Source: Mimachlamys varia (lineage: Eukaryota > Mollusca > Bivalvia > Pectinida > Pectinidae). Taken from it: a stretch of DNA of 64,000 bases. The stretch spans positions 57,492,322-57,556,321 of the forward strand of contig OX392528.1 of assembly GCA_947623455.1 (NCBI GenBank), in the 5' to 3' direction. The translations under genes and the position numbers were made by a program. The notes beneath the pieces were generated by a model. The model had not been told where the DNA came from and did not search any database. It saw only the letters and a program-made list of their open reading frames with translations. This document shows, piece by piece, positions 408-55,259 of this stretch (positions are counted from its first letter, which is position 1; every line of letters begins with the position of its first letter).

Positions 408-1895
408 GAAATGTATAGGATGTGTATACCAGATGTATAGGAGGTGTTTACCAGATGTATAGGAGGTGTATACCAGATGTATAGGAGGTGTATACCAGAA
501 ATAAAGGAGGTGTATACGAGATGTATAGGGGGTATATACCAGATGTATAGGGGGTGTATACGAGATGTATAAGAGGTATATACCAGATGTATAGGAGGTG
601 TATAACAGATGTATAGGAGGTGCATACCACATGTATAGGAGGTGTATACCAGATGTATAGGAGATGTATACCAGATTTATAGGAGGTGTATACCAGATGT
701 ATAGGAGGTGTATACCAGATGTATAGGGTGTATACCAGATGTATAGGAGGTGTATACCAGATGTATAAGGGGTATATACCAGATATATAGGGGGTGTATA
801 CCAGATGTATAGGAGGTGTATACCAGATGTATAGGGGTGTATACCAGATATATAGGGGGTGTATACCAGATGTATAGGGGATGTATACCAGATGTATAGG
901 AGGTGTATACCAGATGTATAGGAGGTGTATACCAGATATATAGGGTGTGTATACCAGATGTATAGGAGGTGTATACCAGATGTATAGGGGGTGTATACGA
1001 GATGTATAGGGGGTATATACCAGATGTATAGGGGGTGTATACGAGATGTATAGGAGGTATATACCAGATATATAGGGGGTGTATACCAGATGTATAGGAG
1101 GTGCATACCAGATGTATAGGAGGTGTATACCAGATGTATAGGAGGTGTATACCAGATGTATAGGGTGTATACCAGATGTATAGGAGGTGTATACCAGATG
1201 TATAGGAGGTGTATAGCAGATGTATAGGAGGTGTATACCAGATGTATAGGAGGTGTATACCAGATATATAGGGTGTGTATACCAGATGTATAGGAGGTGT
1301 ATACCAGATGTATAGGAGGTGTATACGAGATGTATAGGGGGTATATACCAGATGTATAGGAGGTGTATACCAGATGTATAGGAGGCGCATACCAGATGTA
1401 TAGGAGGTGTATACCAGATATATAGGGGGTGTATACGAGATGTATAGGAGGTATATACCAGATATATAGGGGGTGTATACCAGATGTATAGGAGGCGCAT
1501 ACCAGATGTATAGGAGGTGTATACCAGATGTATAGGAGGTGTATACCAGATATATAGGGTGTATACCAGATGTATAGGAGGTGTATACCAGATATATAGG
1601 AGGTGTATACCAGATGTATAGGGTGTATACCAGATGTATAGGAGGTGTATACCAGATGTTTAGGGGTGTATACCAGATGTATAGGAGGTGTATACCAGAT
1701 GTATAGGGGTGTATACCAGATATAAAGGAGGTGTATACCAGATGTATAGGGAGTGTATACCAGATGTATAGGAAGTGTATACCAGATGTATATGAGGTAC
1801 ATAATTTGATATAAACGAGGTGTATACCAGATGTATAGGAGTTACATACCTGATATATTTGGGGCGTATAACAGATGTATTGAAGGTACATAATT
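408..1895. repeat. 22-bp minisatellite array
   Basis: About 65 head-to-tail copies of a 22-bp unit (ATGTATAGGAGGTGTATACC plus AG), with variants carrying GGGG, a deleted G pair, or ATATATAGG. Divergence rises towards the right edge (1780-1895). The array begins directly at the ATGAA tail of the preceding LINE, as if it expanded from that junction. Because 22 is not a multiple of 3, the rc strand is open in several frames, giving long Tyr/Ile/Pro-rich ORFs that are not genes. Confidence 0.97.
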
Positions 1896-4115: not shown

Positions 4116-4994
4116 CTGTTAAGCATGAGTTTGGCAAGCCTTCTCAGTCCTGGGTTTTTCGTTATGTTATCTTTGTCCAACAATATTCCCTCGTTGTCAT
4201 AATAGTCGTTGATGCATCTGTGTTTGTCATATCCTGTTTTACACCATTTTCAAGAAAGCGTTGACATAATCGGCGAGGACTCCGCCAGTTTTTGTTTGGG
4301 GGTCGTAGTGGGTGACGCGATCAAAATGCCACACTTCATGAACCCTGTTGAGTTTTTAACATTTTCTTATAGTTGTTTTTAGGTCATCGGTCACCCAAGT
4401 GTATGTAATCGCTCTCTCCTTATCGTCGTGCTCATATTTAACTTGTTATGACATCTCTGCGCAAGTGCGACAAAGAGGGAACAAGAGTTTTCCAACAGCT
4501 GTATACTGTTTACATTGTAGACAGTAGTAGTTTATATTTAGGTAGGCCGGCATGCCTTGTGATGTCTCGTCTAAGACTAACTGTTCGTAAGATTGAAGCA
4601 AGCCTTCGATTTCGGAAAACAATCTTTCTGCTGTCAGTTCCGAAACCTTCATGATCGGAAGGGAGATGGGGTAATCCAGTTTAGGGCACGCCACTGACAA
4701 CCGAACCAAATCGCTCGTATCCATAAATTCGGTGATGTTTCCTATCGGTGACTGAAACAGCCTCTTCAATGTCCTAAGTATATCTGGTAAATCCCGTACT
4801 TCCAAATCCACAAAATCCACTTTATAATGCGTGGCCTGAGTCTGGATTTCGAAATATCTGTCTCCTTCAATACACGTAAAGTGTAATAATCTTCTATATT
4901 AGCGCTTTTTGGTAGGTGACTTTCTCTGAGTATACCGTGTTTGCATCAGAAGGTCTCTTGCCTGCCCCGCCGTATTGACCATATTTTAGTCTGT

Positions 4995-5160
4995 GGCGCT
5001 GTAGGTTGTCGATTCTACTAAACAACATGCCACATTGGTCACACTGGTGTAGGGAGCCATTAAAATGCCTGACTAAATATCTGTCGTAGTTGTCTCTCCT
5101 TCCAAACTTCTCGCCGCAGATGGTGCAACAGAACTCTCGTCTGTGTCCTCGTAACCGTCT
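4995..5160 (-). other. C2H2 zinc-finger segment of the polymerase gene
   Basis: The rc strand encodes a Cys-Cys/His series: EFCCTICGEKFGRRDNYDRY and CDQCGMLFSRIDNLQRH. The first finger keeps Cys-x2-Cys and a His-rich end but has Tyr where the third ligand spacing would be usual. The second keeps all landmarks up to the final His. Immediately upstream, the His-x4-His end of another finger (EHRRLRGH) stands alone, because its Cys half lies beyond the retrozyme at 5759-5801. Confidence 0.7.
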
Positions 5161-5257
5161 ATGTTCTTAAAGTAATAAATTAAAGGGGTTTTACGCACCT
5201 GACCCATCTGCTTCTACATAAGTTTAGAAATTTTGGATTCCTACCTTTTGACCCCTA

Positions 5258-5301
5258 GCATCACTGAAGAGTCCTAGGAGGACGAAACAGCTGTATGATG
5301 C
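5258..5301 (+). ncRNA. Hammerhead ribozyme, type I, copy 1
   Basis: Stem I is GCATCA (5258-5263) paired with TGATGC (5296-5301), perfect over 6 bp. The core CTGAAGA is at 5264-5270. Stem II is GTCC (5271-5274) paired with GGAC (5280-5283) around loop TAGGA. The core GAA is at 5284-5286. Stem III is the short ACA (5287-5289) with TGT (5292-5294) across GC. The cleavage nucleotide is A5295. All invariant core positions of the family are present. The very short stem III is the pattern reported for metazoan retrozyme and PLE hammerheads, which often work as dimers. Confidence 0.88.
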
Positions 5302-5636
5302 AGTTTAATTCATTTTTTCGGCATACTGTATCTATTACTAAATTTAAGAGGTGCAACATATGTGTATGTTACGTGATCTATATGATAGGGGGTGGCAGAC
5401 TCTGCTGGTGAATTTTTTAGTCCCCGAGGTTTGCTGGAGCCTCCATAGCCACAGTTAATATCATTTGAGTAGTGGCACGGTACTTAATATACACATTTTC
5501 GTAGTACACGATTTGAAATTATACAGAACTAGTTTAATTCTACTTCTAGATTAATAAATTAAAGGGGTTTTACGCACCTGACCCTTCTGCTTCTACATAA
5601 GTTTAGAAATTTTGGATTCCTACCTTTTGGCCCCTA

Positions 5637-5680
5637 GCATCACTGAAGAGTCCTAGGAGGACGAAACAGCTGTATGATGC
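5637..5680 (+). ncRNA. Hammerhead ribozyme, type I, copy 2
   Basis: Identical in all paired and core positions to the copy 379 bp upstream: stem I GCATCA/TGATGC, core CTGAAGA, stem II GTCC/GGAC, GAA, stem III ACA/TGT, predicted cleavage after A5674. Two intact cores at exact unit spacing predict a 379-nt excised RNA. Confidence 0.88.
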
Positions 5681-6002
5681 AGTTTAATTCAATTTTTCGG
5701 CATACTGTATCTATTACTCAATTTAAGAGGTGCAGCAAATGTGTGTGTTACGTGATCTCGAAGAAGACTCATCTTGGAAAACGAGGCCCCACACTCATTA
5801 CATTCGTATGCCATGTTGACCGTTCAGACGTCGACCGTAAACTGGCAGGAAAGTATAACCTGCCATAGATAAAACGACACCGTCACTTTGACTTGATGAT
5901 AAACATTACCCACAATGCATTGCACATTACCCAGAATGCATCTGAATAATGTGTTAAAAACACCACCCAGTGTGTAAGGTGTGTCATTTTTATTCTGACT
6001 CT

Positions 6003-12852: not shown

Positions 12853-14352
12853 CTAATGAGCATGCTCAAAAAAGTCCATCTTCATATCACCTAAAGAAAC
12901 AGAATATTTCTCAATGAGACAAAGATGGCGACCATAAAACTTGCCCATAGTACTGATCAACCTGGATCTCTCGAATCCTTGTGTTGTTAGCTTGTTTGTC
13001 AGCAGTCGACATCGATCACGAAAATCCCGATATTTAGAGCAAGCCCTGGAATACCGAATCAACTGCGACATGTAAACACCATAGGTTGGAGAAGCAGGGA
13101 AGTTACTATCAAGAAATGGAAAGTTAACGATCGGAAAATTGAAATCATCACGTTTATCGTATAGCTTAGTAGTAAGCTGTCCATGTTGGTCGTAGTTTAA
13201 GTAGAGATCGAGGTAAGCAGCTGATGTAGAAGAGTCGGTTGTGTCCTTTATTTCAAGTTCAGAAGGGTTTATCCGATCGACGTGGTCAGCAAACTTCTTA
13301 TTGTTTATAGACAACAAATCGTCGATATATCTGAAAATGAAATTAAAATATTTGGCAAGGTTTTTGTTACCTGTCCTGATTAGCTCCCCCACAAATACAG
13401 CCTCGTATGAAAACAAAAACAAGTCGGCTAAGAGTGGGGCACAGTTTGTTCCCATGGGAATGCCAACAGTCTGCTGGAAAATCTTTCCTCCGAACTCAAC
13501 AAAAATGTTGTCGACCAGGAATTCAATCATCCTTACTACATCTTCTTCAGTATATTTCCTCTTAGCTTTTGCCGTGTTTTTGACAAAGGATGCTCCGAGA
13601 TAGCTCACTACCATATATTTGTATCGTCGTCCGCCTTTCTTAGAAAAGAAAGCTCTCATAACAAGAGATCGGAGACGTTCCTTCAATTTTGTATGAGGTA
13701 TGGTAGTGTACAGGGTGGAAAAATCAAATGTTTTGACCGAAAAGACGTTCTTTAGGAGGGGATGTTCAAGATTGATCAAAAGATCTTTCGAATTTTTCAA
13801 AATCCACATCCCATTAATGCCACTTCTTGAGTACACAGTGTCACAATACGACTGAAGCCCTGATTTTATGGTACTAAGAATTGTAGTAAAAAGTTTTGAT
13901 AATGGCTTGGTCGAGCAATTAGCAGAGCCAGCGATAAAACGTTGCTTATAAGGATCCTTGTGTAGTTTCGGTATCCAATAAAAACAAGGTAGGTCAGCAT
14001 CTTGCTCATTAACCGGTACTTGGAAAGATTGCAATACCGAAGCATGGTTTGACAGTATTTCATCTTTCGAAAAACCGGTCAATGTGTAAGTAGGATTACC
14101 TTGGTTATCAAGCAGGCCTAGTTCTTTTTGCAAGCAATGAATGTAATAGCGTTTGCAAACAATGATCAAGTTGTTAGATGCTTTGTCTGCAGACACGACC
14201 ACATACTTATCATGTAGATTGTTGAGTGTTGCTCGAACATCGGGGTCAAGAAATATCGACTTGTGTTTAGTTTTCATTTTGTTACGCAAATTGCTTATTC
14301 TTTTCTGAATAGAGGACCTAATAGACTTCACCCACTCTGAAAGTGAATCCAA
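12853..14352 (-). CDS. Penelope-like reverse transcriptase
   Basis: A 499-residue open frame. Landmarks in order: [15 protein letters not shown] (residues 56-70), [17 protein letters not shown] (126-142), the catalytic [12 protein letters not shown] (209-220), [16 protein letters not shown] (296-311), and RYIDDLLSIN (341-350) with the YIDD active-site pair. A basic Tyr/Arg-rich C-terminal part follows ([19 protein letters not shown], 429-447). The order and motif wording fit the PLE-type RT group rather than LINE or LTR RTs. The frame is intact, but the N-terminal part lies in a separate frame at 14382-14867 because of a small local duplication (about 14350-14385). No other copy in the window keeps an intact RT. 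It is probably not functional alone. Confidence 0.85.
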   Translation of the reverse strand: MDSLSEWVKSIRSSIQKRISNLRNKMKTKHKSIFLDPDVRATLNNLHDKYVVVSADKASNNLIIVCKRYYIHCLQKELGLLDNQGNPTYTLTGFSKDEILSNHASVLQSFQVPVNEQDADLPCFYWIPKLHKDPYKQRFIAGSANCSTKPLSKLFTTILSTIKSGLQSYCDTVYSRSGINGMWILKNSKDLLINLEHPLLKNVFSVKTFDFSTLYTTIPHTKLKERLRSLVMRAFFSKKGGRRYKYMVVSYLGASFVKNTAKAKRKYTEEDVVRMIEFLVDNIFVEFGGKIFQQTVGIPMGTNCAPLLADLFLFSYEAVFVGELIRTGNKNLAKYFNFIFRYIDDLLSINNKKFADHVDRINPSELEIKDTTDSSTSAAYLDLYLNYDQHGQLTTKLYDKRDDFNFPIVNFPFLDSNFPASPTYGVYMSQLIRYSRACSKYRDFRDRCRLLTNKLTTQGFERSRLISTMGKFYGRHLCLIEKYSVSLGDMKMDFFEHAH

Positions 14353-52302: not shown

Positions 52303-53103
52303 ATTAGCACGTATATGTGTCATAACACATGACATGTCAGTATGGAAGTATGCACACGAACTTCTGCAATGAGCCACAATGAAAAGGTATAAGGCAGGTT
52401 CAGCATGGACAGGTAGCAAGAAATCTCAGTTAATGTCAGAATGCTCTGGATATATTATATGCGTGCATGCCCGGTCCACATATGTAGAACGAACACCGCC
52501 CCTTCCCTCCCCATGCTAACTCGCCACACACTTATGGGCCAGAGCACAGGTGCATGCAACAACTGGCCGGTATACACACATGCCACACCGATAAAGGTCA
52601 ACCCATACCCACAGATATGTGTTTACATATGTCACGACCCATACCGGCACGACACGAGCGCACACATGACACCCACAACGATCCAGAACTACGCTGTCCA
52701 GAACATGTTATTATGCCAGTGAATATAGAGGAATGTTTTAAATATGGGTCTATAGTGTCTTGCACATTGATACAAACAAACTATAGTCTATTGGTTCAAC
52801 GAAATGGAGAGTATGCTTCAAGGTATGAAAGATAGCAATATAAATTTTACCATATTAACTGTTACAAAAAGCAATAATGCAAGAAACTTAATAGTACATG
52901 TCATATAAATAAGAAATCCGAATTGAATAATGGAAGCATTAAACTGAAAGCATAGTCCAAGATCGGTGCTTCTAGCATAGACGTCTATATATCTGTTAAC
53001 TGTAACCTATGCAATGGAATTTTTCTGAAAAGTCGCGATAACTCTGGAGAGTAAAGAAGTAACGATTTGATTGTAATTTACTAGTAACTTTGCACAAAAA
53101 AAA

Positions 53104-55259
53104 TACTATTTCACAAGTATTACAGCTAGGAATGTCAGATAAAATATACTATTTCACAAGTATTACAGCTAGAAATATCATATGAAATATACTATTTAAC
53201 AAGTATTATAGCTAGGAATGTCAGATAAAATGTACAATTTCATCAGTATTATAGCTATGAATGTCAGATACAATATACTATTTCACAAGTATTACAGCTA
53301 GGAATGTCAGATAAAATATACTATTTCACAAGTATTACAGCTAGGAATGCCAGATAAAATATACTATTTCACAAGTATTACAGCTAGGAATGCCAGATAA
53401 AATATACTATTTCACAAGTATTACAGCTAGGAATGTCATATGAAATATACTATTTAACAAGTATTACAGCTAGGAATGTCAGATAAAATATACTATTTCA
53501 CAAGTATTACAGCTAGGAATGTCAGATAAAATATACTATTTCACAAGTATTACAGCTATGAATGTCAGATAAAATATACTATTTCACAAGTATTACAGCT
53601 AGGAATGTCATATGAAATATACTATTTAACAAGTTTTACAGCTAGGAATGTCAGATAACATGTACTATTTCATCAGTATTATAGCTAGGAATGTCAGATA
53701 AAATATACTATTTCACAAATATTACAGCTAGGAATGTCAGATAAAATATACTATTTCACAAGTTTTACAGCTAGGAATGTCAGATAAAATATACTATTTA
53801 ACAAGTATTACAGCTAGGAATGTCATATGAAATATACTATTTATCAAGTATTATAGCTGGGAATGTCAGAAAAATATACTATTTCACAAGTATTACAGCT
53901 AGGAACGTCAGATAAAATATACTATTTCACAAGTATTACAGCTAGGATTGTCAGATAAAAAATACTATTTCACAAGTATTACAGCTAGGAATGTCAGATA
54001 AAATATACTATTTCACAAGTATTACAGCTAGGAATGTCAGATAAAATATACTATTTCACAAGTATTACAGCTATGAATGTCAGATAAAATATACTATTTC
54101 ACAAGTATTACAGCTAGGAATGTCATATGAAATATACTATTTAACAAGTTTTACAGCTAGGAATGTCAGATAACATGTACTATTTCATCAGTATTATAGC
54201 TAGGAATGTCAGATAAAATATACTATTTCACAAATATTACAGCTAGGAATGTCAGATAAAATATACTATTTCACAAGTTTTACAGCTAGGAATGTCAGAT
54301 AAAATATACTATTTCACAAGTATTACAGCTAGAAATGTCATATGAAATATACAATTTAACAAGTATTATAGCTAGGAATGTCAGATAAAATGTACTATTT
54401 CATCAGTATTATAGCTATGAATGTCAGATAAAATATACAATTTCACAAGTATTACAGCTAGGAATGTCAGATAAAATATACTATTTCACAGGTATTACAG
54501 CTAGGAATGTCAGATAAAATATAATATTTCACAAGTATTACAGCTAGGAATGTCATGAAATATACTATTTAACAATATTATAGCTAGGAATGTCAGATAA
54601 AATGTACTATTTCACAAGTATTATAGCTGGGAATGTCAGAAAAATATACTATTTCACAAGTATTACAGCTAGGAATGTCATATGAAATATACAATTTAAC
54701 AAGTATTATAGCTAGGAATGTCAGATAAAATGTACTATTTCACAAGTATTATAGCTGGGAATGTCAGAAAAATATACTATTTCACAAGTATTACAGCTAG
54801 GAATGTCAGATAAAATATACTATTTCACAAGTATTACAGCTAGAATTTTCAGATAAAAAATACTATTTCACAAGTATTACAGCTAGGAATGTCAGATAAA
54901 ATATACTATTTCACAAGTATTACAGCTAGGAATGTCAAATAAAATATACTATTTCACAAGTATTACAGCTTTGAATGTCAGATAAAATATACTACATGTA
55001 TTTCACAAGTATTACAGCTAGGAATGTCAAATAAAATGTACTATTTCATCAGTATTATAGCTAGGAATGTCAGATAAAATATACTATTTCACAAGTATTA
55101 CAGCTAGGAATGTCATATAAAATATACTATTTCACAAGTATTACAGCTAGGAATGTCAGGTAAAATATACTATTTCACAAGTATTAAAGCTAGGAATGTC
55201 AGATAAAATATACTTTTTCTCAAGTATTACACCTAGGAATGTGATATAAGATATACTAA
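53104..55259. repeat. 43-bp satellite array with higher-order structure
   Basis: About 50 units of 43 bp (CTAGGAATGTCAGATAAAAT followed by ATACTATTTCACAAGTATTA and CAG). Variant units with CATATGAAATATACTATTTAAC recur every several monomers. The block from CTATGAATG at 53555 to about 53770 is repeated without visible change from 54071, an offset of 516 bp or exactly 12 monomers. Non-coding. Confidence 0.96.

Follow-up and report, generated by a model that had tools for sequence, protein, structure and literature searches.

A short non-coding element of the bivalve Mimachlamys varia carries a hammerhead ribozyme, and comparison of its copies across the genome reveals how they are built: many dispersed insertions end at the same 3' point, 84 nt beyond the ribozyme cleavage site, their 5' ends vary, the successive passes of the unit within one insertion appear to go back to a single unit, and target-site duplications are not found above chance. 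The explanation that we consider probable from this comparison of sequences is that a circular retrozyme RNA is copied by a Penelope-like reverse transcriptase from a fixed internal site.

Results

Two type I hammerheads in a 1.56-unit insertion

The window, by which we mean the whole 64,000-nt stretch of DNA analyzed (contig C2), contains two type I hammerheads on the plus strand, spaced by 379 bp as in the preliminary description (Table 1). That description had expected a covariance search to recover them, and the Rfam model RF00163 did match both, at 32.4 bits each (E-values of 4.2e-6 in 751 bp and 3.6e-4 across the whole window), but these scores are slightly below the gathering score of 34 bits, so that a default Rfam scan reports neither. 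The hammerhead core pattern is matched twice in the window compared with a mean of 0.17 in shuffled sequence, and two matches were reached in 2 of 100 shuffles. Stem I (6 bp) and stem II (4 bp) have the lengths first described. For stem III, given there as 3 bp, we prefer a reading in which 2 bp of the self-complementary octamer ACAGCUGU close an AGCU tetraloop, because three pairs would leave a 2-nt loop. The minimum-energy fold of a 50-nt stretch formed stems I and II and paired the third helix differently. Given the palindromic stem III, action as dimers is possible; according to the portion of the mussel retrozyme paper available (PMC7229834), a cloned mussel repeat self-cleaved, and amphibian repeats needed dimers.

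The surrounding anatomy departs from the preliminary description in several respects. The "tandem" it reported does comprise more than one unit, but it is an insertion of 1.56 units, fixed at the 3' end and variable at the 5' end, rather than a repeat array. The direct repeat is present at a spacing of 379, although a repeat tool gives its length as 212 bp and not 207 bp, and the unit, described as having no ORF, has no sizeable one: seven ORFs of at least 30 aa touch the insertion, and the longest (64 aa) begins inside it and extends into the flank. The predicted 379-nt circle is not more stable than its shuffles (z -0.32, 60 shuffles), and a search by folding for unusual stability in the 84-nt tail found none.

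Table 1. Retrozyme features and other features of the window (positions are those of the window).
Feature	Position	Strand	Remarks
Type I hammerhead 1	5258-5301	+	RF00163; predicted cleavage after A5295
Type I hammerhead 2	5637-5680	+	RF00163; predicted cleavage after A5674
Retrozyme insertion, 591 bp, 1.56 units of 379 nt	5168-5758	+	5' boundary uncertain by a few bases
Direct repeat, first copy (unit positions 1-212)	5168-5379	+	Repeat comparison
Direct repeat, second copy	5547-5758	+	96% identical to first copy, spacing 379
Predicted released unit, 379 nt, 38% G+C	5296-5674	+	Cleavage sites read from the sequence; putative circle
84-nt tail, from ribozyme cut to fixed 3' end (...GTTACGTGATCT)	5675-5758	+	End fixed in 38/40 and 27/29 elements; putative reverse transcription start
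Frame apparently split by the insertion, zinc-finger-like CxxC motifs on both sides	4500-5172, 5759-5814	-	By eye
499-aa ORF	12853-14352	-	Weak RVT_1 match (16.9 bits, cut-off 29.6, E 0.0055)
22-bp minisatellite, 67.6 copies	411-1887		Open in three minus-strand frames
43-bp satellite, 50.3 copies	53098-55258		

A dispersed family of retrozymes

Across the assembly searched (975 Mb, 71 contigs), there are 1,217 exact occurrences of the 38-nt ribozyme core, compared with 0 for the pattern read backwards, and multi-unit loci are also present, in line with the earlier expectation of further copies. The 586-bp element used as a genome query gave at least 48 matches (40 scored of 5,105 candidates). 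RF00163 produced 35 hammerhead matches above the 34-bit cut-off elsewhere in the genome, and the retrozyme was recognizable in 13 loci read around RF00163 matches, two of which scored below the cut-off. Because dispersed copies, a type I hammerhead, a 379-nt unit, the lack of a sizeable ORF and the multi-unit structure of longer copies occur together, the window element is, judging by its sequence, almost certainly a non-autonomous animal non-LTR retrozyme, and the metazoan retrozyme reading first put forward is upheld. Its type I hammerhead scores just below the cut-off (32.4 versus 34 bits), its non-coding unit of 379 bp lies within the range of about 150-450 bp that defines the class, its copies are many, dispersed and in some cases multi-unit, and its G+C content of 38% is below the limit of 50%. 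A Penelope-like element would have its own reverse transcriptase and GIY-YIG ORF, and here no ORF exceeds 64 aa; nor does a fixed 3' end inside the unit fit the ends of LTRs. The element is thus a new one in a known class, the metazoan non-LTR retrozymes.

The hammerhead core is intact in 64 of the 80 motifs of 38 loci and broken in the other 16, and among copies the hammerhead has no clear advantage in conservation over the remainder of the element (0.027 vs 0.031); both the share of intact cores and their unremarkable conservation are what one would expect if most copies were dead on arrival. Some relatives of the retrozyme repeat the hammerhead head to tail with a period of 45 bp, in 19 copies at locus L100 (276-1131 of C9:49269400-49270700), 13 at L112 and 8 at L111.

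Copies share a 3' end and differ at the 5' end

We determined copy ends in two samples. The first consisted of 40 rows, the window and 39 loci with flanks, which were chosen by similarity and aligned to the tripled unit. Since its query itself ends at the fixed 3' point, the second sample was chosen independently, and without regard to length, as the first 30 exact ribozyme matches, all on contig C1; these gave 29 elements, L057 being left out as the same element as L056. In the first sample, the 3' end lies at unit position 208-222 in 38 of 40 rows (exceptions, 204 and 239), a count that includes every row and hence segmental duplicates, and in 35 of 37 rows once three segmental duplicates are removed. 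The second sample gave the same interval for 27 of 29 elements, with the others ending at 203 and 159. Ten other relatives found via RF00163, roughly 84-92% identical, include six that end at unit positions 213-215; the remaining four end at 202, 168, 151 and 110, the last of these being the edge of the fetched piece. We rejected the linear cleaved RNA as the source of the copied 3' end: such copies would stop at unit position 128, the ribozyme cut, as none of the 40 similarity-picked rows and none of the 29 elements with an exact ribozyme match does.

By contrast with the fixed 3' end, the 5' ends are scattered by variable truncation in both samples. In the second, 24 of 29 elements are shorter than one unit, five are longer and three reach 500 nt, and therefore only a minority keep the two hammerheads needed for unit release. 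Head-to-tail units would also arise in an ordinary satellite spreading as DNA through unequal exchange, and the hammerhead repeats of newts were initially reported as satellite DNA, as the available part of one paper recounts (PMC7229834). For the present element we give this origin next to no credence, since the copies are dispersed and mostly below unit length, and an end structure that is fixed on the 3' side and variable on the 5' side argues strongly against it.

The sequence context of the fixed end offers further information. At the first three bases of the 3' flank, T, T and A are found in 30, 22 and 20 of 34 rows of the first sample (leaving out L024, L031, L036 and L043 besides L027 and L032), with no clear preference beyond, and in 18, 17 and 10 of 27 elements of the second. 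As the unit itself reads on with TTTATG beyond position 212, this TTA-like flank may reflect microhomology to a TTA target site or, with the same appearance, a start point that shifts slightly. An AT-rich target is what Penelope-like machinery would be expected to use. AAAAA occurs within the first 15 flank bases in just 2 of 69 flanks, and there is therefore no poly(A) tail.

Target-site duplications, direct or inverted, do not exceed cross-locus controls near the ends of 38 loci (without L027 and L032, segmental duplicates of L023), and within 700 nt there were 25 matches versus 32.4 expected in 37 loci, the test set here also lacking L013, a duplicate of L009 that was kept in other tests. 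The 27 well-ended elements of the second sample did yield 67 direct matches compared with 8.5 expected; 57 of these come from three insertions into minisatellites (L049, L065 and L068) and 10 from the remainder. By eye these three insertions look near-blunt, with about 3-4 bp duplicated at L068, about 7 bp missing at L049 and L065 within a few bp, although each value can be given only up to a multiple of the repeat period.

LINEs, too, leave insertions whose 3' end is fixed and whose 5' truncation varies. A LINE might thus move the retrozyme by recognizing its last ~80 nt as a 3' tail, much as SINEs use LINEs, and the template could even then be a circle. We nevertheless think it unlikely that a LINE is responsible, given that duplications do not rise above chance, that A-runs are rare in the flanks, and that the retrozyme ends at a distance from its hammerhead that is typical of Penelope elements, as described below.

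Passes of one insertion appear to descend from one unit

Insertions that extend beyond one unit allow the successive passes to be compared. We used 38 loci with at least two passes (L027 and L032 removed, L013 retained though duplicating L009). Within a locus, passes have 2.03 variants per 200 nt in common, compared with 0.29 between loci, a seven-fold difference that none of 2,000 permutations reached, and shared variants number 108 in all versus about 3.2 expected by independent mutation. Among locus-private variants, 39 are present in both passes and 161 in one pass only, the latter as expected for later mutation. The upstream pass has its own downstream pass as nearest among the 38 in 21 of 38 loci. 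Pass-specific alleles were seen at p<0.01 in 0 of 379 columns, and identity between loci differs by 0.0004 between cross-pass and same-pass comparisons. Since the passes of a locus share variants and pass-specific alleles are not seen, each insertion seems to have been copied from one unit, most simply a circle. A circular unit would explain this single origin directly, and on the sequence evidence the template is very probably a circular RNA.

Passes inherited separately by way of linear multimers would look otherwise, unless repeats had been homogenized in most loci. A template of this kind, multimeric or read-through, would have its 3' end or its start at unit position 212, which the TTT that follows this position could mark as an RNA end, and its passes would later be homogenized by gene conversion. 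Unprocessed RNA is indeed the main substrate in the anole Penelope-like system, according to the part of that study available (PMC11167929). We regard a linear template as quite improbable for the retrozyme all the same: separately inherited passes would not share rare variants within one locus and would be expected to carry alleles of their own, and the homogenization would have to have taken place in most of these short, dispersed loci.

The shared 3' end lies at a Penelope-type distance from the ribozyme

We compared the fixed 3' end with the behavior of Penelope-like elements. In vitro, reverse transcription of the anole element begins internally, at ORF nucleotides 111-118; its hammerhead cuts after nucleotide 29, which places the start 82-89 nt downstream of the cut. 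In the available sections of this work, the hammerhead is dispensable for insertion and circles are not used (PMC11167929). The M. varia genome contains at least 56 GIY-YIG matches (150 of 241 candidates scored), by way of which we found two families, both young and both carrying a hammerhead. Three of the six family B copies part from the rest at 78, 82 and 85 nt beyond the cut, and the other three continue together to about 198 nt; in family C, three of five copies diverge at 68, 71 and ~72 nt, and the other two continue to about 183 nt. The farther end class (~183-199 nt past the cut) was not seen in the retrozyme copies examined. The retrozyme insertions end 84 nt past the cut, compared with Penelope-type values of 82-89 (anole), 78-85 (family B) and 68-72 (family C), a span of 22 nt (68-89) or ~6% of the 379-nt unit, so that spacing alone is weak evidence. 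Comparison of the retrozyme with 22 Penelope-related loci detected no DNA similarity (best E 1.4), and hence no sequence shared with an autonomous partner among them.

A direct Penelope kinship is instead visible in L113 (C18:13297000-13300600; relatives L114-L118), a multi-pass element of 1,410 bp whose hammerhead is of the Penelope type. Over its last ~200 bp, which include hammerhead and tail, it matches family B at about 92%. Its 323-aa frame, for which no Pfam family was matched, shows a relationship to the reverse transcriptase of a telomeric Penelope-like family (29% over 258 aa, E 4e-31). The passes of L113, at least 2.3 in number, are 99.9% identical; the element stops 85 nt beyond its cut, and a second end (L118) lies at about 81 nt. 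Judged by these features it is a mid-sized counterpart of the retrozyme, with which it shares a hammerhead, multi-pass insertion and a near-equal end (85 vs 84 nt past the cut), but it carries the family B tail and a reverse transcriptase-like remnant, neither of which the retrozyme has. By analogy with these elements, the enzyme that copies the retrozyme is probably a Penelope-like reverse transcriptase.

At L078 (C16:17800-22300), a Penelope-like family has a 741-aa open frame (RVT_1 and GIY-YIG) that adjoins CCCTAA telomeric repeats, and neither the pattern nor Rfam found a hammerhead in it. This family occurs in tandem near contig ends, and further GIY-YIG matches lie near the ends of C1, C4, C5 and C17.

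Discussion

The proposed course of events draws on the motif, the copy anatomy and the literature. We infer that a transcript running through a copy with two hammerheads would cut itself twice and free the 379-nt unit, which a host RNA ligase would close into a circle. A reverse transcriptase, most likely Penelope-like, would then enter the circle at the fixed site 84 nt past the hammerhead cut, with priming at a target DNA break whose first bases are often TTA, and would travel ~0.3 to 2.6 turns round the circle before stopping at variable points. The outcome would be an insertion without target-site duplication.

Several known systems resemble parts of this picture. The retrozymes of the mussel Mytilus galloprovincialis (Cervera and de la Pena 2020, PMC7229834, as far as the available text goes) share the type I hammerhead, low G+C content and non-coding, head-to-tail units (350-390 bp compared with 379 here), and in both genomes retrozymes coexist with hammerhead-bearing Penelope-like elements. 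For target-site duplications the mussel paper gives a length of over 4 bp "when present", whereas none stood above chance here, and its available text yielded no description of a fixed 3' end such as we have mapped. Plant LTR retrozymes also have a hammerhead-flanked non-coding unit that yields RNA circles, here predicted, but differ in having type III hammerheads in LTRs, a primer-binding site, a polypurine tract and a 4-bp target-site duplication, according to the part of a review available (PMC7761336). Penelope-like elements with hammerheads (anole Poseidon PAc and families B and C) have in common with the retrozyme an end or start 68-89 nt past the cut, 5' truncation and repeated units. 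They encode a reverse transcriptase and a GIY-YIG endonuclease, in contrast to the non-coding retrozyme, which has no sequence in common with those compared, and some of their copies have a second, farther end, unlike the retrozyme copies examined.

The copy anatomy is the new part of these findings, for which we claim no priority: at the level of titles and the beginnings of abstracts, with few subscription papers covered, we found no report of a mapped reverse-transcription start in a metazoan retrozyme. In the parts of two reviews available, metazoan retrozymes are said to lack a conserved motif that would help deduce the autonomous retrotransposon used (2020; PMC7761336), and both LINEs and Penelope-like elements are left possible as the machinery (2024; PMC11722881). 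Both the mapped end and the comparison of variants within loci speak to this question, and the fixed 3' end together with single-unit passes provides a defined start site and template, and with them a direct biochemical question. For animal retrozymes more generally, it is an evenly balanced proposition that RNA circles serve as the direct template of a Penelope-type reverse transcriptase, which would begin at one site ~84 nt past the cut and proceed for up to 2.6 rounds; the circle, rather than the linear cleaved RNA, would then be the intermediate, and the start site would reveal the machinery.
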